A stretch of DNA of 56,520 nucleotides, from contig MEPC01000006.1 of assembly GCA_001769655.1 (NCBI GenBank), positions 1 to 56,520 on the forward strand, read 5' to 3'. The stretch's first letter is position 1. Every line of letters begins with the position of its first letter. The notes beneath the pieces were generated by a model that searched no databases, was not told the DNA's origin, and was given only the letters and a program-made list of their open reading frames with translations. Source of the stretch: Bacteroidetes bacterium RIFCSPLOWO2_12_FULL_37_12. GTDB lineage: Bacteria > Bacteroidota > Bacteroidia > 2-12-FULL-37-12. Made by a program: the position numbers and the translations under genes. This document shows, piece by piece, positions 1 through 9,836 of this stretch.

Positions 1-485
1 TTATGCAAATTTATGAAGTAAACTGGTAAACTGAAATACGTTAGCTTGAGAAGTCAATGGGACGGTATAGGGAGGATTTCCGCTAACGGCAGTCCGTCTA
101 AAAACTACTTTCACCAGCAAAAATACACAAAAACCGGATAGAATAGAAGCGATATACGGAAGGAAAAAAAAATAGACCGGAATGAAAATTAAAAATTTGG
201 TATCAACCTGTTTTGATATTTTGCTTTTAGGGAAGTCAAAAATCAAGAAAATAAAAAAATAAGTTCTCTCAGGAACTTCTTGAACATATTTTCATAAATA
301 TCGACACTCTTCTTTATTAACGAAATCCCCATAGAGGAAAAAAACACAACAATCAAAGGGAAAAAAACATCCGTCCAGAGGCAGATTTAGTGCAACAGTT
401 GCTGAATTGCAAGTCATAAGGGCGCAACGAGGTCTTGGTTGTTATCGGTGGTGCTTCTTTCATCCAGAACCATGTAGCAATTTTA
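1..485. other. Left-edge stretch with no supported gene
   Basis: No convincing gene is visible. A minus-strand frame over positions 1-246 could encode an 81-residue peptide with a hydrophobic stretch, but it opens only at a TTG, has an in-frame stop a short way upstream and resembles nothing I recognise. The rest, up to the small gene ending at 486, shows no coding frame, RNA gene or repeat that I can identify. It may contain decayed remains of the accessory region that follows. Confidence 0.5.
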
Positions 486-656
486 TTATGCTAATATCAT
501 TTTCTTCCTTGTCGCGATCTTTCGGGTACTTTTTATAGCAACATTTTTTGCCTTCAGTTCTGTCATTAGCTTTCTGAAGTCATGAAGTTCATCTTCTGTC
601 CAAGGTTTTGATTGAACTGTAAAGTCAACATTTTTTGGTTCTCTGATTAGTCCCAT
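486..656 (-). CDS. Small basic protein, partner of the GNAT-like protein
   Basis: A 56-residue protein starting MGLIREPKNVDFTVQ and ending in a strongly basic tail (KSTRKIATRKKMILA). It starts 4 nt after the stop of the GNAT-like gene, so the two are almost certainly co-transcribed. The middle (SKPWTEDELHDFRKLMTELKAK) looks helical. The ATG is preceded only by an A-rich stretch, as is usual in Bacteroidota. I recognise no named family. A tiny basic protein tightly coupled to an acetyltransferase-like gene could be an antitoxin or accessory subunit, but that is inference from arrangement alone. Confidence 0.6.
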   Translation of the reverse strand: MGLIREPKNVDFTVQSKPWTEDELHDFRKLMTELKAKNVAIKSTRKIATRKKMILA

Positions 657-660
657 TTTT

Positions 661-1179
661 TTATGATTTAAAATATTGTGAAATTAATCTCAGTGCTGCA
701 TTTGTTTCAATAAACATTCGAAGTCCACGAAAATGTGTTGCGAAGAGTGTGTCTTGATAGTGTTTGATTAATGCTGTCTTTGCATCAAAAGCAAGAAAAC
801 CTTGATAACCTTTATCTACCGATACCTTGCATGCAAAAGCAACAAGATTTCCCGGAACTCCTAAATATACTTTGTCTTTATGTTTATTGAACTTTGCGCT
901 TTCAATGAGATGCATAAAAATGTGATCTTTTTTGTCTTCAATACTTAGTAGCCCCTGAATAATAGTATGGTTATTTACTGTTGTAAGTTTATAAACCTGT
1001 TTGTCCCTATCTTTAATTTCCTTTGTCCAGTCAAATTGCCAGTCAGCTTTTATAATTTGGCTCAAATCTTTAATAGTAAGTTTTATAATCGCGGTGTCAA
1101 ACACTTCTCCCGTTAAAGTGTTTTCAATGGAGTTTGTTATTTTATCAATCACAAAGTCAAGAGGTCTTGATATTTTCAT
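661..1179 (-). CDS. GNAT-like acetyltransferase
   Basis: A 172-residue protein. The C-terminal half resembles the GNAT fold: YLGVPGNLVAFACKVS around residues 104-119, then a strand (QGFLAFDA), a helix (ALIKHYQDTLFATHF) and a last segment (RMFIETNAALRLISQYF) like the end of small bacterial GNAT enzymes. The acetyl-CoA loop is not a clean R/QxxGxG/A, so activity is uncertain. It is the first gene of a two-gene unit with the small basic ORF 4 nt downstream. Substrate unknown. GNAT-type toxins exist, so a toxin-antitoxin pair is possible but unproven. Confidence 0.6.
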   Translation of the reverse strand: MKISRPLDFVIDKITNSIENTLTGEVFDTAIIKLTIKDLSQIIKADWQFDWTKEIKDRDKQVYKLTTVNNHTIIQGLLSIEDKKDHIFMHLIESAKFNKHKDKVYLGVPGNLVAFACKVSVDKGYQGFLAFDAKTALIKHYQDTLFATHFRGLRMFIETNAALRLISQYFKS

Positions 1180-1278
1180 ATTTCAAAGTTACGAATAAAA
1201 ATAATCATTATTGTTGAAAGTTTAATTTTTACATTGTTAGTTGAGCGATTCAATTGGCATCTCAGCTAACGAAGAAGG

Positions 1279-1401
1279 GATTAAAGAAGTAAAAAAAAGA
1301 AGGGTTTAGAACCACAACTGTTCGTTTACCTGCACTATTTATTAGAAGCTCAACTCTTTGTTTACCTCTCAAAGCCCTTCTTTTTTTTATTTCTTTTAAT
1401 C
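1279..1401. repeat. Long inverted repeat (about 26-bp arms, 70-nt loop)
   Basis: The left arm (1279-1304) and right arm (1375-1401) are reverse complements apart from one mismatch and one extra T. Both centre on AGAAGGG/CCCTTCT next to a run of A or T. The arms enclose 70 nt containing two copies of a TTTACCT-like word. It lies between the stop of the lysozyme-fold gene and the start of the GNAT-like gene. It could end transcription of the defence-like operon, be a small non-autonomous mobile repeat, or encode a structured RNA. Confidence 0.6.
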
Positions 1402-1468
1402 TTACTGTTATGCGAATACTCTACTCTGTTCACGAAACACAATTGTTGGAAGTTCGCAAGAAAGTTTA

Positions 1469-2278
1469 TTAGATGTTCGCTTTATTATCATGATGTTGTT
1501 TCAGTTTGCCTGAAAGCAACCCCGATTTAAGTTCCACATACTTCCCAAAGATGTTCGGCTGGGGAGTAGATTTTGTTTTATTATATTTTGAAATAGATTC
1601 TGAAACTTTGCCAGTATTATACAAGGTGCATAGAACTCCATTGTTATTGCTAATGTCAATTCCTGTTCCTGACTTAAAATTATCTCTAATAGTTTTTAAT
1701 TCAAACGCACAATATTCAATACTACAATTGGGTGTCATTAAGCATTTAATATTTTCCTTTACCGTTCTTTTGGAACGGTTTTCTACAAGTGAAAGCAAGC
1801 TGTCAATTTCAAGACTCTTCATTATTGATATTTGACATAAACCAATTGTCCAAATTAACCCATGCTGTAATCTGAATTTAAACTCTTGTTCAGATTCACC
1901 TGTTAATTTTTTGTTTTCAATCTTGTTTTTAGTAGCCTCTGCAAGTTGTTCTAAATATAAATCAGATTTTTCTAAAAAAACTTTCTGAACATAGTATTCC
2001 TCAAATTGATTTGCTGGACTTTTATGAAGACTTCTTTCTGCAATGATAACTCCCATAATTGCCTCTGGTGAAATCTTATAAAGTTCTGCCCACTTTATTA
2101 TTGTATCAATATTTTCTTCTATGTCCTTTACAGCAGAACTGTCAATCTCAATTTTATTAATGTCTGCTGATTGGTCTGGATATAATAACTTTCGGTAATC
2201 ACTTGACAGAAGTAACCATCCTCCAATTATTAAAAAAGTCAAAAGCAATAATGTAATGTAAATTTTATTCTTGGTCAT
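1469..2278 (-). CDS. Membrane-anchored lysozyme/transglycosylase-fold protein
   Basis: A 269-residue protein with one N-terminal membrane segment (residues about 6-24), so the rest should lie in the periplasm. Several stretches match the pattern of lytic transglycosylase-like domains: ISPEAIMGVIIAERS (candidate catalytic Glu at the AERS), IGLCQISI in place of the usual GLMQ(I/V)-type motif, and LYNTGKV in place of the common AYNAG. The match is remote, so hydrolysis of peptidoglycan is inference. It is the last gene of a four-gene operon; its ATG overlaps the upstream stop in a TAATG junction, implying translational coupling with the OmpA-like protein, which should also contact peptidoglycan. 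Confidence 0.6.
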   Translation of the reverse strand: MTKNKIYITLLLLTFLIIGGWLLLSSDYRKLLYPDQSADINKIEIDSSAVKDIEENIDTIIKWAELYKISPEAIMGVIIAERSLHKSPANQFEEYYVQKVFLEKSDLYLEQLAEATKNKIENKKLTGESEQEFKFRLQHGLIWTIGLCQISIMKSLEIDSLLSLVENRSKRTVKENIKCLMTPNCSIEYCAFELKTIRDNFKSGTGIDISNNNGVLCTLYNTGKVSESISKYNKTKSTPQPNIFGKYVELKSGLLSGKLKQHHDNKANI

Positions 2279-2862
2279 TATATGGCACTTGATATTGCCC
2301 CTCCATTAAATGTTCCTTCCATTAATTCAAATACATCTATTACCATTAGAGCGACATTATGTTTTTTGGTCTTGGGAAAACGAATCGGAACGTTCTGCCC
2401 AAAGCCGTCATAATAGATTCGTGAAGGCTCAATACCTTGTCCAACGATGATGTTTTTAATTCTCTCTGATGCCTTTCTACTTTCAGTTACTTTTTGAAAT
2501 TGGTCATTGTCAAGATTATCATCAGTATAACCGCCTACAACTAAAACGAGGTCGTTTCGTTGCTTTAATCTAAAAACAATATTTTTTATCGCAAGAGTTT
2601 GTTGATACGTAATGTCCTCACCAGTGGTTGATTCAAGGAAAACTGTATTTAATACAATTGGGCTATTACTAAAATTCGTTGTGCCCTTTGTTTTGACTTC
2701 AAGAAGGTCATTCTCTAATGGATTTATTAATGAAAAGACAAACCAAATAAGGATAGCTGTTCCTGATATTACAGAAATCAATGTTGGTATCCAATACTTC
2801 AGTGGCACACTGAATTTTTTATTCTTGTCTGAAAGGAATTCGTCCTCGGTAGTTTCTTGCAT
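2278..2862 (-). CDS. Single-pass OmpA/MotB-like peptidoglycan-binding protein
   Basis: A 194-residue protein with a charged cytoplasmic N-terminus, one transmembrane helix (residues about 25-46) and a C-terminal OmpA-like domain. The domain shows VVGGYTDD, then a helix with SRKASERIKNIIVGQGIEPSRI and YDGFGQNVPI, matching the family pattern GhTD...R...hL...GI...R...GyG...P. This topology is that of MotB and of ZorB in Zorya phage-defence systems, and differs from outer-membrane OmpA. No MotA/ZorA-like partner is encoded nearby. Third gene of the operon; 10 nt separate it from the HEPN-like gene. Confidence 0.75.
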   Translation of the reverse strand: MQETTEDEFLSDKNKKFSVPLKYWIPTLISVISGTAILIWFVFSLINPLENDLLEVKTKGTTNFSNSPIVLNTVFLESTTGEDITYQQTLAIKNIVFRLKQRNDLVLVVGGYTDDNLDNDQFQKVTESRKASERIKNIIVGQGIEPSRIYYDGFGQNVPIRFPKTKKHNVALMVIDVFELMEGTFNGGAISSAI

Positions 2863-2872
2863 TTTATTTTAA

Positions 2873-3673
2873 TTAGCTGTTTGTAAGTTGAACTAATTCT
2901 GGAATTTTTATTGATAGTAAATCAAGAAGAATTTTCTTTCGCTCTCTGCTCAAACCGATGTCAATATTTTCAGCATCTAATCTTTCTTTTGTGAGTAGTG
3001 CTCTTTTAATTGGGATAGCAAGGATTGCATGTTCCTCTTGGAAACACAAAATAAACTTGTCTTGAATATAATCCTTTAAAAGTTTTTCTAAATTTCCTTT
3101 GTTGATTTGTTCGGCAATCAATTTCCAAAATTCTGAATGGTTTGGTTCGTTGAAATGTCGTTCCCTATAATTCACTTGTTCTCTTTTATTCATTAACCAA
3201 TCATAAGCATTTGTGGTGTCAATGTCTTGTGATAATAGAATGTCAGAACTAAAAAGGTCTTTGAAAAAATTAATCGTTCCGCTGTGGTCGGAATTATATT
3301 TTTTGTTTCCTTTTGTCACTGGGGATTCACCGTCAAGTGCTTTTAAATAATAGAGGGACTTTTGTCTGATAAGTGCAACTCCATTAACTGCCATTGTACA
3401 TCTTAAAAAATAATACATGGAGTAATAAAATTTAATTGTTGCCCAAGAGAAAAGTTTTGCCTCAATTGATTTCAACGCCTCAAACAAACTCAAAAGACCT
3501 TTGAAGTAAAGGTCTTTCGCATCTTCTCGCAATTCAGAAGATAAAAGTGACGCTTGTGATTTATCTAATTGCAGACTTTTAAAATCAGCCACATTCCATT
3601 GGTCAAGAGTTTGGCAGTTTAGAATTGTCTCACAACGAAGTTGCGCTCTATGCCTGTCAAAACTTATATTCAT
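2873..3673 (-). CDS. HEPN-like all-helical protein
   Basis: A 266-residue, largely helical protein. Residues about 62-98 contain ATIKFYYSMYYFLRCTMAVNG, the tyrosine-rich second-helix pattern of HEPN domains. Residues 158-175 (WLMNKREQVNYRERHF) place a conserved-looking Arg before an N-Y-R-x-R-H stretch where HEPN families carry their RxxxxH or RxxADY motif. Many HEPN proteins are RNases used in toxin, CRISPR or abortive-infection systems; others only bind nucleotides. Nuclease activity here is inference. Its start overlaps the end of the DGQHR gene by 17 nt, so the two proteins are probably made together. Confidence 0.55.
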   Translation of the reverse strand: MNISFDRHRAQLRCETILNCQTLDQWNVADFKSLQLDKSQASLLSSELREDAKDLYFKGLLSLFEALKSIEAKLFSWATIKFYYSMYYFLRCTMAVNGVALIRQKSLYYLKALDGESPVTKGNKKYNSDHSGTINFFKDLFSSDILLSQDIDTTNAYDWLMNKREQVNYRERHFNEPNHSEFWKLIAEQINKGNLEKLLKDYIQDKFILCFQEEHAILAIPIKRALLTKERLDAENIDIGLSRERKKILLDLLSIKIPELVQLTNS

Positions 3674-4706
3674 CTTGGTCTGGCAATGATTTTAAAAGAT
3701 GACTTTCCAAAAATTCAACAACAGCTTTTCTTTGTGATTTACCTTCAAGGTTTTTAAGGTCTGCTCTAAGAAGCAATTCTCCTTTTGGCAAGTCCAAGAG
3801 TTTTTTAAACTCGGCTACTTGAAAGGATTTATTTTCTGCACATTTTGAAATTAATTTAGAAACTAAATGCTCAATTGCACCGATGAAACCCGCATTAGTG
3901 AAAAATGGATTCTTTGCTCTGTTACTCCATAAATCCTCTTTGTCGTAATAAAATTTCAAAGCGGAAAAGTAATTCAGTATTGCCATTTTTTGATTTTGAA
4001 GATTTGTAAGTTTATGATTTGCAAAAACTCCATCTGTTTCTAAATGTTTTTTTAAACTCGTTACAACTGCTGATAAGTCAATAATTCCAACACCTCTTGC
4101 TTTGCCAGGAAATTTTATCGCACCATAATACGCTGATTCTTCATTATTATTTAAGTCCTCTGCAATATCTGTTGCACGATTGATTGCATGGTTTGTATCA
4201 TCTTCCATCTCGCCAAATAAATCATAGATTAAACTTTTAGGAACAGGTTTTTGCTCGGAGTTGATATTGACAAAAATTAACGCTGCTTCTCTTGTTGTAA
4301 GTCCAATACAAAAAGTTACAAGAATTTCTTGTTCCCCAATCTTCTCATCATCTTTCATAGCTTCCGAAAGTCCGGCAAGCCGGTGTTGTCCGTCTATTAC
4401 TTGGGATGCGGAAGGAACGATTGGAACCGTAATTTCTCCATCAGAAAATTCGGGTTTTACTTTTTCGTTTGTCCAATTAAGAATGAAAGTGTTGAAGAAC
4501 ATATTCCCTTCCAAGACAAAAGATTTTATTGATAGTATCCTTTGTCTGTTTAGCAACCTCTGAACTGCACCTTCTTCATCGTCTTTGCCTCTTACTGCAA
4601 CATACGAAATGTGAATTACATCTTTCACTTTCATTGTCAAATGAAATACAGTCAGTTTCCCAAATTTTGATTTGAGTGCTTTTGTCTTATGCCTTTTAAT
4701 TGCCAT
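3657..4706 (-). CDS. DGQHR-domain protein (DndB-like)
   Basis: A 349-residue protein with the signature VIDGQHRLAGL at residues 103-113 (DGQHR at 105-109) and FVNINSEQKPVPKSLIYDL at 145-163, both diagnostic of the DGQHR/DndB family, which is distantly related to ParB/sulfiredoxin folds. DndB represses or modulates phosphorothioate DNA-modification clusters, and other DGQHR proteins occur in defence islands. No dndA, C, D or E homologue is present in the window, so this belongs to a different architecture. It is the first gene of the operon; a good Bacteroidota promoter lies 28 nt upstream, and the ATG at 4706 follows a short leader. Confidence 0.85.
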   Translation of the reverse strand: MAIKRHKTKALKSKFGKLTVFHLTMKVKDVIHISYVAVRGKDDEEGAVQRLLNRQRILSIKSFVLEGNMFFNTFILNWTNEKVKPEFSDGEITVPIVPSASQVIDGQHRLAGLSEAMKDDEKIGEQEILVTFCIGLTTREAALIFVNINSEQKPVPKSLIYDLFGEMEDDTNHAINRATDIAEDLNNNEESAYYGAIKFPGKARGVGIIDLSAVVTSLKKHLETDGVFANHKLTNLQNQKMAILNYFSALKFYYDKEDLWSNRAKNPFFTNAGFIGAIEHLVSKLISKCAENKSFQVAEFKKLLDLPKGELLLRADLKNLEGKSQRKAVVEFLESHLLKSLPDQDEYKF

Positions 4707-4733
4707 TGTATTTTGTCTATTTAATTATCGTTA

Positions 4734-4763
4734 CAAAGTTAAAATTATGTCTGTCGGATTCAA
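4734..4763 (-). promoter_or_regulatory. Bacteroidota-type promoter of the DGQHR operon
   Basis: On the minus strand a TTG (4763-4761) is followed after 19 nt by TAACTTTG (4741-4734), matching the Bacteroidota consensus TTG-N19-21-TAnnTTTG. It lies 28 nt upstream of the first start codon. The rest of the gap between 4707 and 4995 shows no gene. Confidence 0.65.
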
Positions 4764-4995
4764 GTTACGATGTCACTTGCTACGAAGTGCAAGGGTTTCG
4801 AATAAAATTTTATCTACGTAACCTATTGCGTAAAGCCATCCAAATTTGGGATATATGCGCAACTATTATAGCGTTTATTGCAAGAAAAATTATTTGTTTC
4901 ATCCGCGTTAATTTAGAAAACTTATAAAATGTTGTAGATTTCATATTTCATAAATCCAAAAAATACGCTGTCCGTAGATCTATACTCCGTAGATG

Positions 4996-5187
4996 TTATT
5001 TAAAAAAATCTTTCACCTTATCCAACGATATCATTTCTTTTTTAAAAGTGTAAGCGCCGGTTCTTGGCGATTTAACGCTCCGTACTGCCATTACACGATT
5101 CTTAATAACAGGTCCTTTCTTTTTTTCTTCTTTAGGTGCTTCTACCTTTTTAACTTTTGCGGGTTCTTTTGCGGGTTCTTTTGCCAT
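4996..5187 (-). CDS. DUF4295 family protein
   Basis: A 63-residue basic protein. The N-terminal third is a Lys/Glu/Ala/Pro-rich tail with repeated KEPA. The conserved part is RVMAVRSVKSPRTGAYTFKKEM and DKVKDFF at the end, which is the DUF4295 pattern of very small Bacteroidota proteins encoded directly after ribosomal protein L33. Function unknown; the linkage suggests a ribosome-associated role. The tail is longer than usual for the family. In many relatives the next gene is ftsY; here the accessory operon follows instead. Confidence 0.85.
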   Translation of the reverse strand: MAKEPAKEPAKVKKVEAPKEEKKKGPVIKNRVMAVRSVKSPRTGAYTFKKEMISLDKVKDFFK

Positions 5188-5216
5188 GGGGGTTATGTAA
5201 TTTAAATGGAATAATG

Positions 5217-5294
5217 AATATCGAACAAGGAATAAAGAATGTTGAAGTTTTGGTTACTTCGAAATTCATTATTCCTTGTTCATTATTCGATATT
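5217..5294. repeat. Palindromic intergenic repeat
   Basis: An imperfect inverted repeat: arm 5217-5248 (beginning AATATCGAACAAGGAAT) pairs with arm 5256-5294 (ending in TTCGATATT), separated by about 7 nt. The words ATTATTCCTTGTTC and TTCGATATT resemble an interspersed repeat I associate with Bacteroidota genomes. It lies between rpmG and the DUF4295 gene and would form a long hairpin in their shared transcript. Confidence 0.7.
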
Positions 5295-5374
5295 TAAAAA
5301 AACATTTTGCGAAAATTGGTTGAAATATTATTGATAAGACACTAATGACTAATGGACAACCGCAAGGGTTGCCC

Positions 5375-5557
5375 CTACTTTATCTCCTTGTGTAAGGTCA
5401 TTTTTTTTAACACCGGATTATACTTTTTCAACTCAAGACGATCGGGTGTGTTTTTCTTGTTTTTTGTGGTGATATATCGGGAAGTTCCGGGCATACCGGA
5501 GGTTTTGTGCTCAGTACATTCTAAGATGACTTGTACGCGTGATCCTTTTTTTGCCAT
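5375..5557 (-). CDS. rpmG: 50S ribosomal protein L33
   Basis: A 60-residue protein starting [17 protein letters not shown], with [25 protein letters not shown] and ending in [10 protein letters not shown], the full L33 pattern. The Cys of LECTEH is present, but the second pair of zinc-ribbon cysteines is absent, so this is the zinc-independent form. It is followed by DUF4295 as in other Bacteroidota. The gene for L28 (rpmB), usually just upstream in relatives, is not here: the next gene upstream is nfnB. Confidence 0.97.
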
Positions 5558-5579
5558 TGTTTTTGATAATTAAACGGGG

Positions 5580-5587
5580 CAAAGGTA
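5580..5587 (-). promoter_or_regulatory. Putative -7 box for rpmG
   Basis: TACCTTTG on the minus strand, 22 nt upstream of the rpmG ATG, fits TAnnTTTG. No clear -33 TTG is visible at the expected distance. Confidence 0.45.
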
Positions 5588-5737
5588 CATGAAATTTTAT
5601 AAATTATATATAAACAGGGTAAAAAATCCACCCCCTGCCCCCGCCAGCGGGGGACAATGTATTATCTTAATACTCAATTTATTGAAAGTTTGGCTCTCTT
5701 TAAAAGATACTATAAAAGAAAGGTAAGTGAAAATTGT

Positions 5738-7240
5738 TTAGGAAACAAGAAGATGATTATGGACAACGGAACTGATGTATTTATGCATTCCTGCCGCCGC
5801 CTTTCTACCATCACCCATTGCCAGTACAACTGTAGCTCCCCCCCTAACAATATCCCCTCCAGCAAATATTCCAGGAACCGTTGTCATCATGTTTTCATCC
5901 ACTTTGATGGTGTGCCTTGGCGTCATTTCAAGCTCCGGCATTGATTGTGGAATTAATGGATTTGGCGATACTCCAATGGCAACTATTACCATGTCAACGG
6001 CTACTTCCTCCTCCGATCCAGCCAACGGAACCGGACTTCTTCTTCCGGATTTATCCGGTTCTCCCAGAACCATTTTTTGTAGTATCATGTTCTTCACCCT
6101 TCCTTTTTCATCGGCATTGTATTTTATGGGTGAATACAAATTCAAAAACTCTATCCCTTCATCCAGGGCATGGTGAACTTCTTCTTTCCGTGCCGGCATT
6201 TCATCCCTCGACCTCCGATAGACAATCATCGCTCTTTCTGCTCCCAATCGTTTTGCGGTTCTCACCGCATCCATGGCTGTATTTCCACCTCCTATAACTG
6301 CTACCTGTTTGCCAACATATAAAGGAGTGTCAAAGTCCTTTTTCGAACCTCCCATCAGATTTACCCTTGTCAAAAACTCATTTGCCGATAAAACACCTAC
6401 CGAATTTTCACCGGGAATATTCATAAAATTAGGTAATCCGGCTCCACTTCCTACAAAAAATGCTTCGAATCCCTGCTTTTTCAATTCATCAATCGTTGCA
6501 GTTTTTCCAACTATAAAATTTGTCTTAAATTTTACACCCATTTTACGGATGGTTTCTATTTCTACATCTGCAATCATATTAGGAAGCCGGAAATCAGGAA
6601 TTCCATATTTAAGCACACCGCCTAATTTGTGGAGCGCTTCAAAAACAGTAACGTCATACCCAAATTTTGCAAGTTCACCAGCTACAGTAAGACCCGCAGG
6701 ACCGGATCCAATAATTCCTACTTTAATATGATTTTCAGGCATCATTTCAGGTATGGAAATTTTGCCGCTGTCTCTCTCATAGTCGGCAACAAATCGCTCA
6801 AGATAACCAATCGCGGCTGAGGGTGACTTTAGCTTTATGGTATAAAAACATTGTGCCTCACATTGAATTTCCTGAGGGCAAACCCTACCGCAAACCGCAG
6901 GCAGAGAATTCGTTTCTTTAATCACTTTTGCGGCAGAAAGAAAATCGCCTGATTCTACAAATTTTAGAAATTTAGGAATATTAATCCCAACGGGACATCC
7001 AGTAATGCAAGTCGGGTCAACGCAATCCAAGCATCTTTTTGCTTCCAACAACGCCTGTTCCACACTCAACCCTTTGTTTACCTCCACGTAACTTTTATTT
7101 CTTACCAAAGGATCCTCCTCAGGCATTTTTACCCTTTCAATTTTTGTTCTTTCTTTCGACTTTAACGATTTACGTAATTTGTCCCTCCATTCAGCCATTC
7201 TTTCATTGTGGTAGTATTCATTGTCTTGTGTTGTATCCAT
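5738..7240 (-). CDS. nfnB: NfnB/GltD-like flavoprotein, NADPH-dependent ferredoxin oxidoreductase large subunit
   Basis: A 500-residue protein. The N-terminal domain has two cysteine clusters for Fe-S centres (CLDCVDPTCITGCPVG near residue 70 and CGRVCPQEIQCEAQC near 117). Then come a FAD-binding GSGPAGLTVAGEL motif (about 178-190), an NADPH-binding GGGNTAMDAVRTAKRLGAE (about 316-335) and a second FAD contact (GIFAGGDIVRGGATVV). This is the glutamate-synthase small-subunit-like family. The partner just upstream is NfnA-like, so the pair most likely forms the bifurcating NADH-dependent ferredoxin:NADP+ oxidoreductase. A role as GltD is less likely since no gltB is near. The 5' end is ATG at 7240. 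Confidence 0.88.
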   Translation of the reverse strand: MDTTQDNEYYHNERMAEWRDKLRKSLKSKERTKIERVKMPEEDPLVRNKSYVEVNKGLSVEQALLEAKRCLDCVDPTCITGCPVGINIPKFLKFVESGDFLSAAKVIKETNSLPAVCGRVCPQEIQCEAQCFYTIKLKSPSAAIGYLERFVADYERDSGKISIPEMMPENHIKVGIIGSGPAGLTVAGELAKFGYDVTVFEALHKLGGVLKYGIPDFRLPNMIADVEIETIRKMGVKFKTNFIVGKTATIDELKKQGFEAFFVGSGAGLPNFMNIPGENSVGVLSANEFLTRVNLMGGSKKDFDTPLYVGKQVAVIGGGNTAMDAVRTAKRLGAERAMIVYRRSRDEMPARKEEVHHALDEGIEFLNLYSPIKYNADEKGRVKNMILQKMVLGEPDKSGRRSPVPLAGSEEEVAVDMVIVAIGVSPNPLIPQSMPELEMTPRHTIKVDENMMTTVPGIFAGGDIVRGGATVVLAMGDGRKAAAGMHKYISSVVHNHLLVS

Positions 7241-7281
7241 GTTGAAAATAAATTTTCAATTAAAAAAACCTCATCCCCCGT

Positions 7282-7306
7282 CCCCTTCTCCAAAATGGAG
7301 AAGGGG
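7282..7306. repeat. Short perfect hairpin between nfnA and nfnB
   Basis: CCCCTTCTCCA (7282-7292) and TGGAGAAGGGG (7296-7306) pair perfectly across a 3-nt loop, inside a CTCATCCCC...GGGGTGA context. A related motif occurs at 35002-35021. It lies in the nfnA-nfnB gap and could affect the balance of the two subunits. Confidence 0.7.
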
Positions 7307-7380
7307 TGACGTAAAACAAAAAATTTCTGAAATTATAAATTTTATTTGTATATTCAATTCAGTTAGAGTTTAAAAATATT

Positions 7381-8220
7381 TTATCGTTCGTCAAGCACCG
7401 GTTTAAGAGAGCATTGACTATAACTTTCTTCTTCCATTTCTTTATAAGCATTTAAACGCAAAAGCATCTCTTCAAAATTCACCTGATGAGCATCGAATTC
7501 AGGTCCATCTACACACACAAACGCTGTTTTACCATCAACGGTCACTCTGCAGGCACCACACATTCCTGTGCCATCCACCATAATGGTATTTAAACTTGCC
7601 ATGGTTTTTATTCCATATTTTTTAGTTAACAGCGCCCCGAATTTCATCATGATTGCAGGTCCGATAACAATTGCCAGATCCACTTTCTCCCGGTTAATTA
7701 TTTCCTCCATGCCTATGGTTATTAATCCTTTTTTCCCTCTGCTTCCGTCGTCTGTCATAATAATAACTTCATCAGAACATGCATTAATTTCTTTCTCCAA
7801 TAACAATAAATTAGCAGATTTAGCGGCAAGAACGGAAATCACTTTATTTCCGGCTTTTTTCATGGCGCTTACTATAGGGTACAAAGGGGCAACTCCTACT
7901 CCACCGCCGCAACATAAGACCGTTCCAACTTTTTCAATATGAGTGGATTTACCTAAGGGTCCTGCAACATCCAGAATAAAATCACCTTTCTCTAAAAGTG
8001 TTAATTTATGAGAAGTTACTCCCACTTTTTGTACAATGAGGGTAATAGTTCCCTTCTCAGGATCAGAATCAACTATAGTTAGTGGGACACGCTCTCCGGA
8101 TTCGTCAATCCGGATAATGACAAAATGGCCCGCCTTACGGCTCCTTGAAATTTCCGGCGCCTCAACAACTAATTTTACAACATTGGGAGATTGAAATTCT
8201 TTTTCAGTGATTTTATACAT
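7381..8220 (-). CDS. nfnA: NfnA-like FAD/NAD-binding and [2Fe-2S] subunit
   Basis: A 279-residue protein of the ferredoxin-NADP reductase type (sulfide dehydrogenase / DHODH electron-transfer subunit family). It has an N-terminal beta-barrel FAD domain with GERVPLTIVDSD, a pyridine-nucleotide domain with CCGGGVGVAPLYPIVSAM (about residues 103-120), and a C-terminal cysteine cluster MCGACRVTVDGKTAFVCVDGPEFDA for a [2Fe-2S] centre. The adjacent NfnB gene, 140 nt downstream, supports an NfnAB complex exchanging electrons between NADH, NADPH and ferredoxin. PyrK is an alternative, but no pyrD lies nearby. Confidence 0.88.
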   Translation of the reverse strand: MYKITEKEFQSPNVVKLVVEAPEISRSRKAGHFVIIRIDESGERVPLTIVDSDPEKGTITLIVQKVGVTSHKLTLLEKGDFILDVAGPLGKSTHIEKVGTVLCCGGGVGVAPLYPIVSAMKKAGNKVISVLAAKSANLLLLEKEINACSDEVIIMTDDGSRGKKGLITIGMEEIINREKVDLAIVIGPAIMMKFGALLTKKYGIKTMASLNTIMVDGTGMCGACRVTVDGKTAFVCVDGPEFDAHQVNFEEMLLRLNAYKEMEEESYSQCSLKPVLDER

Positions 8221-8312
8221 TGGAATAAAGTGAGAGAAAAGTGCAATAATACACTATGACTTTTTTTAAAAACAAAACTGAAGTCAGGTGCATGACTGAT
8301 AAAAGTCATTTC

Positions 8313-9836
8313 TTACTGCTCACTCTTCCTCGGCATGGTATGATCCCAGCGGCTTACAATCGTTTTTGTATCAGTATAAAAGTAGATAGAATGTTTGCCA
8401 TGCGCTTTTAAATCGCCAAAAAGTGATTCTTTTGCACCTCCAAAACTAAAGAATGCCATAGGTGCCGGCACTCCCAGATTAATACCAATCATTCCAATAT
8501 CAATTTTATAGGAAAATTCCCTTGCCGCAGAACCGCTGTCTGTAAATATAGAACTTGTGTTTGCGTAAGGATTTGAATTTATGATTGAAATGGCGTGGTC
8601 GAGGTCTTCTACTTTAATAATACAAACTACAGGTCCGAATATTTCTTCTTTCGCTATGGTCATTTCGGGTTTCACGTTATCAAAAATTGTTAACCCAAGA
8701 AAAAATCCGTTTTCATGACCGGGAACAGTGACATTACGTCCATCCATTAATAAGGTAGCGCCTTCTTTAATGCCGGTTTCAATATAACGTAAAACTTTTT
8801 CTTTATGAACTTTTGAAATTACCGGTCCCATGCCGGTATCCGGATATAATCCGTTTCCAACTTTAAATGTTTTAGCGATAGAAACCACTTTGTCACGAAG
8901 GCGCGGGTAAATATCTTTATGAGCTAAGATCACTGAACCAGCCAGGCAACGTTCACCGGCACAACCAAATCCGGAGTCACACATGACTTTAGCGGCTACA
9001 TCAATATTTGCATCGGGCATTGCAACCAGAAAGTTCTTTGCTCCTCCCAATGCCTGAACTCTTTTCCCATGCTTACAACCGGTTTCATACACATGTTTGG
9101 CTACCGGAGAAGAACCAACGAATGACACTCCTTTAACTAAAGGGTGAGTGCAAAAAGTATTTACGACATCTTTAGTTCCATTGACGAGATTGACCACTCC
9201 GGCGGGGAATCCACATTTGTCAATCAATTCAAAAATCTTCACTTGACTTAGTGGCACTTGTTCAGAAGGTTTCAATACAAAGGTGTTACCGCAAGCAACG
9301 GCATAAGGCAAAAACCACATGGGTACCATGGGTGGAAAATTAAAAGGAGCGATAGCAGTAAAAACACCGAGAGGTCTTCTTACACTGCGGCAATCAATTC
9401 CCTTGGCAATATCTTCAAAAGATTCACCCATGATTAAGGAAGGGATTCCGATGACATTATCAATATTATCAATGCCACGCCTTAAATCACCTCTGGATTC
9501 AATCAACGTCTTGCCATGTTCTATGGTACATAATCTTGCTATTTCTTCAAAATTTTCTTCCAGAAGATTTTTCCAACGGAAAAAATATTTTACTCTTTCA
9601 GCCGGTGGAGTTTCTCTCCAGGCGGGAAAAGCGGCTTGTGCCGCTTCAATGGCGCTACTCACATCTTTTCCCGTTGATACCGGAACGTGAGCGATGATTT
9701 CGCCGGTGGCGGAGTTGGTTACATCCAGATACTCGGTGGTTTCGGGTGTCACCCATTTACCATTGACGTAATTTTGAATTTTCTGTATCTCCTTTGCGGG
9801 AGATGTTTTCTTTTGGGGTGCTGTGAGTGTTTCCAT
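8313..9836 (-). CDS. mmsA: CoA-acylating methylmalonate-semialdehyde dehydrogenase
   Basis: A 507-residue aldehyde dehydrogenase. PFNFPPMVPMWFLPYAVACGNTFVLKPSEQ forms the cofactor region, GGAKNF (264-269) carries the Asn found in this subfamily where most ALDHs have the general-base Glu, and the catalytic Cys is C297 in GCAGERCLAG. These features separate it from other ALDHs. It converts methylmalonate semialdehyde (valine, thymine) or malonate semialdehyde (beta-alanine, uracil) to propionyl-CoA or acetyl-CoA. Dihydropyrimidinase and class III aminotransferase genes 7-10 kb away fit the pyrimidine/beta-alanine route. Monocistronic by spacing. Confidence 0.93.
   Translation of the reverse strand: METLTAPQKKTSPAKEIQKIQNYVNGKWVTPETTEYLDVTNSATGEIIAHVPVSTGKDVSSAIEAAQAAFPAWRETPPAERVKYFFRWKNLLEENFEEIARLCTIEHGKTLIESRGDLRRGIDNIDNVIGIPSLIMGESFEDIAKGIDCRSVRRPLGVFTAIAPFNFPPMVPMWFLPYAVACGNTFVLKPSEQVPLSQVKIFELIDKCGFPAGVVNLVNGTKDVVNTFCTHPLVKGVSFVGSSPVAKHVYETGCKHGKRVQALGGAKNFLVAMPDANIDVAAKVMCDSGFGCAGERCLAGSVILAHKDIYPRLRDKVVSIAKTFKVGNGLYPDTGMGPVISKVHKEKVLRYIETGIKEGATLLMDGRNVTVPGHENGFFLGLTIFDNVKPEMTIAKEEIFGPVVCIIKVEDLDHAISIINSNPYANTSSIFTDSGSAAREFSYKIDIGMIGINLGVPAPMAFFSFGGAKESLFGDLKAHGKHSIYFYTDTKTIVSRWDHTMPRKSEQ

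Follow-up and report, generated by a model that had tools for sequence, protein, structure and literature searches.

A DGQHR-superfamily gene paired with a HEPN-fold gene: a candidate two-gene immune module found at the start of a four-gene locus in a Bacteroidota genome

Introduction

Do four tightly packed genes work as one system? The question is raised by a locus of Bacteroidetes bacterium RIFCSPLOWO2_12_FULL_37_12, located near the start of a 56,520-nucleotide (nt) stretch of DNA (positions 1 to 56,520 of contig MEPC01000006.1, assembly GCA_001769655.1), which is referred to as the window. According to the list of open reading frames (ORFs) of the window, four genes, designated A to D, run on the minus strand from 4706 down to 1469 (Table 1). 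A first-pass annotation had read them as one operon that combines a DGQHR (DndB-like) protein, a HEPN-like protein, a single-pass OmpA-like protein and a lysozyme-fold protein, with a cytoplasmic sensor pair coupled to an envelope effector. All of its gene boundaries, overlaps and gaps were confirmed. Although the close spacing of A to D hinted at a single system, comparison with relatives indicates that C and D are passengers.

Results

Genes A and B occur as a pair in several phyla

An alignment of five DGQHR proteins served as the bait of a genome scan, and the best 80 of the 499 relatives listed (L020 to L099) were examined. Among the 38 closest loci (L020 to L057), in which the identity of A ranges from 37 to 94%, tblastn placed B directly after A in 37, with L038 and L039 being identical. 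At the 38th (L021), A is truncated by the end of its contig, and another contig of that genome, C182, carries B (93%). With each start chosen by a script close to where alignment with the window would place it, the overlap of the two frames was 11 nt in 12 and 17 nt in 10 of the 36 distinct loci, hence one of these two lengths in 22. Distances between A proteins were correlated with those between the corresponding B proteins over 36 pairs including the window (Mantel r of 0.82), and the highest value among 5,000 permutations was 0.25. Both alignments omit L039 (identical to L038), L021 (cut), L058 and L059, and that of A also omits L055, whose 5′ end is cut. Judging by the record titles, the hosts of L020 to L057 belong to about eight phyla: Bacteroidota, Bacillota, Pseudomonadota, Cyanobacteria, Desulfobacterota, Patescibacteria, Ignavibacteriota and Acidobacteriota.

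Beyond these loci, a profile built from B still matched directly after A in L058 (E of 1e-5), and both genes are fragmented in L059. Seven of the 40 remoter loci (L060 to L099) carry such an adjacent match, five at E up to 0.005 (L066, L071, L078, L082 and L092, which together with L058 span 1e-7 to 4e-3) and two at 0.03 to 0.04 (L088 and L099). Adjacent matches were also found on a Leptospira plasmid (L007; E of 0.002) and on a Providencia plasmid (L006; E of 0.03 to 0.04), and the match in L096 does not adjoin A. As for a third partner, a simple ORF caller detected an ORF of at least 80 amino acids (aa) beyond B in 34 of the 36 loci, and in two loci it lay no more than 60 nt away and shared the strand of B. 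A third gene close behind B is thus the exception. We lean, by a modest degree, toward A+B being a self-contained two-gene module that moves horizontally.

Genes C and D look like local additions

Searches by tblastn (E of 1e-3) detected neither C nor D at any of the 80 DGQHR loci examined, although a number of these loci extend only a short way past B. In a Cyclobacteriaceae metagenome-assembled genome (MAG), A and B are 93 to 94% identical to those of the window, and the DNA homology halts at the start codon of C. What follows B in this MAG is an EcoO109I-type restriction endonuclease (REase) gene and a C5 methylase gene, with no C or D. DUF1402, the family of D, occurs in 2 of the 36 A-bearing genomes, both rhizobial, on contigs other than those with A+B and beside hslU, as read by eye on a stretch of G378 and on a short locus only for G379.

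These data bear on the proposal that A, B, C and D work jointly, such that phage sensing in the cytoplasm would lead to action on peptidoglycan via C and D. In its favor are the tight packing, the single N-terminal hydrophobic segment in each of C (residues 25 to 46) and D (residues 6 to 26), and the presence of one promoter-like site, ahead of A. The Bacteroidota-type promoter consensus TTG-N19-21-TAnnTTTG matched only once when both strands of 1 to 5400 were scanned, 27 nt before the ATG of A and ahead of neither C nor D, whereas mononucleotide shuffling of the minus strand gave an expectation of 0.14 matches per shuffle; a single promoter, as annotated at first, fits this result. However, the failure to detect C and D at the 80 loci and their absence behind a nearly identical A+B leave the four-gene envelope system unsupported, and we consider it very improbable. 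Among the relatives examined, none supports a grouping of all four genes. C and D look like genes that came to lie behind A+B in this lineage, outside its mechanism, and they may be read from the A+B promoter.

The characters of C and D were revised in part. Gene C is OmpA-like at scores under the curated cut-offs (NCBIfam YiaD, E of 9e-8; PF00691, E of 8e-5, 23.4 versus 27.2 bits), with 19 NCBIfam models, mostly of the OmpA/MotB type, matching below their cut-offs; its one hydrophobic segment agrees with a single-pass protein. Gene D belongs to DUF1402 (PF07182; E of 1e-14, 54.7 bits versus a cut-off of 27), and the lysozyme fold ascribed to it was not confirmed: in hhalign, the DUF1402 profile gave a probability of 0.25 percent against 12 SLT proteins, versus 0.21 percent for the reversed control. 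Such a fold is suggested by motifs only, namely E81, G146-x2-Q149 and Y220-N221, which are invariant in three of three DUF1402 proteins and resemble those of transglycosylases. Sequence searches of the PDB with D yielded only C-type lectins at E of 0.6 or worse, and the DUF1402 profile yielded no match there.

Within the phylum of the window, a search of 395 genomes gave no credible relative for D; a weak match in G185 (E of 2e-4) was dropped as a 3-dehydroquinate-synthase-like sequence by eye. On plasmids, tblastn at E up to 1 returned eight records, all rhizobial (best E of 9e-10), which a stricter run (1e-5) had not listed. No OmpA-annotated gene was seen among the neighbors in three of these eight records. 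Plasmid searches with B and C (tblastn, 1e-5) and a phage search with C (0.01) gave no match, and DUF1402 was not found in the literature searched.

Gene B models as a HEPN-fold protein with an altered motif

As a single sequence, B matches PF05168 at E of 0.027, under the cut-off. At the family level, this model was matched by 28 of 37 members at E up to 1, the best at 4e-4. The AlphaFold2 (AF2) model of B is of high quality (predicted local distance difference test [pLDDT] of 96.1, predicted template modeling score [pTM] of 0.93), and its top structural matches are 2hsb (Z of 12.0) and 4nqf (Z of 10.3), both titled HEPN, followed by 1ufb (TT1696; Z of 9.9), also a HEPN protein. These alignments cover 119 to 141 residues at a root mean square deviation (rmsd) of 2.7 to 3.2. 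Csm6 (Z of 7.4) and AbiV (Z of 6.1) come next, and the first unrelated row has a Z of 5.4. A sequence search of the PDB with the B profile gave one weak match, a phosphohydrolase (E of 0.06).

Six residues, W77, Y83, H130, R164, Y169 and P177, are invariant in the 37-member alignment. The R-x4-6-H motif of HEPN proteins appears as R164-x4-Y169 in all 37 members, each of which also carries the separate H130. In the model, R164 and Y169 are located at the end of the helix formed by residues 156 to 170, presumably the place where HEPN proteins bear their active site. The HEPN-like label, weak for the single sequence, is thus supported by the family matches and by the model, which gives B a HEPN fold; its active-site motif is altered to R-x4-Y, and an invariant His lies elsewhere in the sequence.

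Gene A most likely has a ParB/sulfiredoxin-type fold

The assignment of A to the DGQHR superfamily is certain, with scores well over the cut-offs (TIGR03187, 107.1 versus 58.85 bits; PF14072, 60.3 versus 29.1 bits) and with the DGQHR pentapeptide at residues 105 to 109 invariant in 36 of 36 aligned proteins. It scores far under the cut-offs of the named families, however (DGQHR_dnd_1, 75 of 450 bits; DpdB, 67.2 of 300; DndB, 27.1 of 328). The DpdB profile spans residues 6 to 304, and DpdB and DndB are its only matches in PADLOC-DB. An AF2 model from the 36-sequence alignment (pLDDT of 88, pTM of 0.70) contains an N-terminal domain, residues 12 to 153, for which ParB-family structures are the best match (Z of 9.4 over 95 to 99 residues, rmsd of 2.3 to 2.6), followed by sulfiredoxins at a Z of about 6. 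Foldseek placed a ParB with CTP-gamma-S in its top row (E of 0.005), and a sequence search of the PDB with A gave no match. According to the model, this member of the DGQHR (DndB/DpdB) superfamily most likely has a ParB/sulfiredoxin fold, with a nucleotide-binding-type domain.

Such a fold also allows for A itself to be the effector, a nuclease or restriction-like protein as in GmrSD and SspE, which share the ParB/Srx-type domain, with B as an accessory or nucleic-acid-binding partner. Both NTPases and nucleases are placed in this superfamily in the literature (PMC4619093 and PMC10853773). SspE matched the A model (Z of 4.7 over 114 residues, rmsd of 3.5; the structure-comparison tool cautions that a Z below 8 may reflect a common arrangement), and GmrSD_N matched A weakly (E of 0.004). 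Nevertheless, no HNH or DUF1524 domain was matched in A by Pfam at E up to 1, and the BrxU match (Z of 4.4) says little because its rmsd is 14. The location of R164 and Y169 in B, at the presumed HEPN active site, also argues against B being the accessory. We regard A as the effector as unlikely.

A proposed mechanism for A+B

We favor, at somewhat better than even odds, an immune module in which A binds or hydrolyzes nucleotide and restrains B until infection frees B to act, probably on RNA. In this mechanism, A would keep B in check in the uninfected cell; infection would alter a nucleotide or nucleic-acid state sensed by A, and B would be released. Freed B would then act, probably by cutting RNA or by otherwise halting the cell, so that the phage is left unsupported. 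On the best reading, A+B would be an immune or toxin-antitoxin-like module of two genes, probably of an abortive kind. A more ambitious version is somewhat less likely: that A+B is a widespread, unnamed two-gene immune system, in which a DGQHR nucleotide switch of the ParB/sulfiredoxin fold directly gates a HEPN effector whose Tyr-for-His substitution and use of the separate invariant His constitute a new active-site arrangement among HEPN nucleases.

Defense genes were traced within about 5 kb in 6 of the 37 distinct loci, a lower bound, as 116 of the 166 listed neighbor proteins plus two from L113 were scanned pooled and 20 of them or their like one by one; of the families in the two pooled PADLOC tallies (232 and 44), the first 25 of each were covered. 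The neighbors are the EcoO109I-type REase and C5 methylase (L113), Abi_2 and AbiD (L040), Vsr and a type II REase (REase_II; L041), LmuB of Lamassu (L033), reverse transcriptase (RT) UG39 and AbiLi (L056), and a PDC-S60 candidate (L022). An nSTAND NTPase neighbors L036, and a SduA match occurs among the pooled neighbors, not traced to a locus. That a cytoplasmic DGQHR-HEPN pair is found near anti-phage genes, as anticipated in the first-pass annotation, is therefore supported for A+B. In addition, L047 adjoins a P2-type portal gene, and on a P2-like contig (L015) a DGQHR gene and a follower that is HEPN-like at the motif level only lie between gpA and the portal gene. This gpA-portal site of P2 (old/tin) is an anti-phage hotspot according to Rousset et al. 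(PMC9122126).

The nearest rival is a plain toxin-antitoxin system, which overlaps with the favored mechanism: B would be the toxin and A its neutralizer, kept for the stability of plasmids or prophages, with any phage protection being a by-product. Two genes that mostly overlap or nearly touch would suit it, as would remote versions on plasmids and the copy that adjoins the portal gene of a prophage. Against it, A is large and conserved, its DGQHR is invariant and its fold is of a nucleotide-binding type, whereas most antitoxins are small. We give this explanation a lesser, though appreciable, chance.

Several points weigh against the immune module with a HEPN effector. First, the B profile as bait matched only four of the 395 genomes searched in the phylum of the window, and A stands beside B on the stretch read only in the window and in G099, where the frames overlap by 17 nt. 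In G190, the B match lies 493 nt from a contig start, and in G116 a B match was found without A on the 3.1 kb read. The single B sequence matched 1 of 296 genomes, the window itself. Second, Foldseek with the B model ranked 2hsb first at an E of only 0.78, which is not significant, and the structure-comparison tool warns that helical bundles can score a Z of about 13 through arrangement alone; hence, the PF05168 family result and the order of the ranking carry much of the weight for HEPN. Third, RNase activity of B may be absent because the usual motif His is missing in 37 of 37 members, and this Tyr-for-His swap is the main reason for doubt on that activity. Fourth, the 6 of 37 loci with traced defense neighbors are a raw count, the one-by-one scan covered 20 proteins, and other copies lie among housekeeping genes, e.g., polC in L028. 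Finally, the defense role, like nucleotide use by A, RNase activity of B and gating of B by A, is inferred from the pairing, the modeled folds, the conserved residues and the neighborhoods.

Remoter DGQHR genes have other settings

Eight of the 35 plasmid matches of A and two of its three phage matches were examined. Viral-contig scans with A, B or D as single-protein baits found no relative, and a three-sequence DGQHR alignment as bait found four. In L015, L016 and L018, a DGQHR gene is accompanied by a gene that is HEPN-like by motif (W..TAYY and RN.WNY). The three pairs were treated as leads and not counted as members, since neither in these loci nor in L019 does the B profile give a match at E of 0.05 or better. 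A search of Escherichia coli genomes for DNA related to the L016 pair gave no match.

L018 belongs to the filamentous Pseudomonas phage PfAC19, in which the gene directly behind the DGQHR gene encodes a 324-aa protein whose motifs are HEPN-like; this protein has no Pfam match and no B-profile match, and the pair is possibly a remote version of A+B. In L019, from an Acinetobacter phage MD-2021a record, the DGQHR gene lies between an rsrIM-annotated methyltransferase and a 294-aa protein. On L014, an IMG/VR contig, the DGQHR protein has 542 aa, including a long additional stretch at its N terminus, and its gene converges with one that is C5 DNA methyltransferase-like by eye. Other partner sets of the superfamily are seen in L008, where a GIY-YIG nuclease gene adjoins the DGQHR gene, and in L012, where it lies near a second DGQHR gene and genes for radical SAM and ATP-binding proteins. 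The pNL1 DGQHR protein carries a C-terminal match to Swt1-like HEPN (E of 8e-4, under the cut-off).

The Cyclobacteriaceae MAG (G349; L021, L102 and L110 to L114) contains a repeat of about 114 nt with an internal palindrome. It has 32 matches genome-wide, but seven of these arise from the palindrome, when a copy is matched again on the opposite strand, leaving about 25 places. Copies are spaced 0.5 to 3 kb apart, and in several contigs they all point the same way. Between copies lie the A+B pair and a gene of 408 aa, and the restriction-modification pair follows one. The A+B pair may reside in an integron cassette, but no integrase over the integron cut-off was found in that genome, and the repeat occurs beside ordinary-looking genes too.

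Layout and surroundings of the locus

The window starts at base 1 of its contig, and its 3.9-Mb genome is the sole member of its order among the genomes compared. Features are listed in Table 1. To the right of A, a short lysine-rich ORF and a ribosomal protein L33-like ORF are followed by metabolic genes, as read by eye. On the other side, a 172-aa ORF (661 to 1179) is followed by a short ORF and has its own TAnnTTTG at 1191; it resembles a GNAT or toxin-antitoxin protein by eye only, and none of the models in Pfam, PADLOC and NCBIfam matched it (E up to 1). Between 1290 and 1420, behind D, a long inverted sequence (AGAAGGG...CCCTTCT) with a T-run on the minus strand was noted by eye. It is possibly a terminator or an element edge, and a terminator scan did not pick it up.

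Table 1. Features of the four-gene locus (positions in the window)
Feature	Position	Strand	Description
Gene A	3657..4706	−	349 aa; DGQHR/DndB superfamily; TIGR03187 E 1e-30, PF14072 E 2e-16
Gene B	2873..3673	−	266 aa; HEPN-fold (model); 17-nt overlap with A
Gene C	2278..2862	−	194 aa; single-pass OmpA-like; 10-nt gap after B
Gene D	1469..2278	−	269 aa; N-terminally anchored, DUF1402 family; 1-nt TAATG overlap with C
Putative Bacteroidota-type promoter, TTG-N19-TAACTTTG	4734..4763	−	Pattern match upstream of gene A
Transferable A+B block	2862..4745	−	blastn DNA homology of 90-91% with the Cyclobacteriaceae MAG, two contigs each covering part

Discussion

DGQHR (DndB-like) proteins are common, and for some of them the pairing described here identifies a specific partner. 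It also poses a testable question, namely, whether a nucleotide-binding-type protein restrains an RNase, and B adds to the HEPN proteins a family with a nonstandard invariant motif.

The pair fits none of the named systems compared. DndB, DGQHR_dnd_1 and DpdB share the DGQHR domain of A, but their partners are dnd or dpd genes, whereas that of A is a HEPN gene. No ORF for dndA, dndC, dndD or dndE and none for a ZorA-like long membrane protein was seen by eye among those of 1 to 9000, so the reported lack of Dnd and Zorya partners beside the locus stands. Gene C is weakly like ZorB3 of Zorya (E of 0.003), with no zorA beside it. Gene B matched no family of PADLOC-DB 2.0.0 at E up to 1, and A+B has no PADLOC 2023 model. 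No paper naming the pair was found in the literature searched, in which bioRxiv lies outside the coverage and few subscription journals inside. A+B appears to be unnamed, although the combination of ParB-type and HEPN proteins was already described in 2013.

That theme was set out by Anantharaman et al. (PMC3710099), where the MAE_28990 and Ribo L-PSP-HEPN families are in operons with ParB and a ParB-HEPN fusion, Saro_3948, is tabulated; the pNL1 protein may be this fusion. The main text of that paper mentions neither DndB nor DGQHR. Both HEPN families are marked "Yes" in what appears to be the motif column of that table, in contrast to the R-x4-Y of B in 37 of 37 members, and the MAE_28990 model is not among the 24 Pfam families reported for the family of B.

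Another parallel is AbiV (PDB 9bj6 and 9bj7), from a two-component Lactococcus antiphage system, a HEPN-fold protein of the structural ranking above that, like B, belongs to a two-component arrangement. AbiV is not known to have a DGQHR partner, and no sequence match to B was seen. According to the table in PMC3710099, AbiV lacks the usual HEPN motif and has an alternative conserved His. AbiV is nevertheless an RNase by its PDB title, and B likewise departs from the usual motif.

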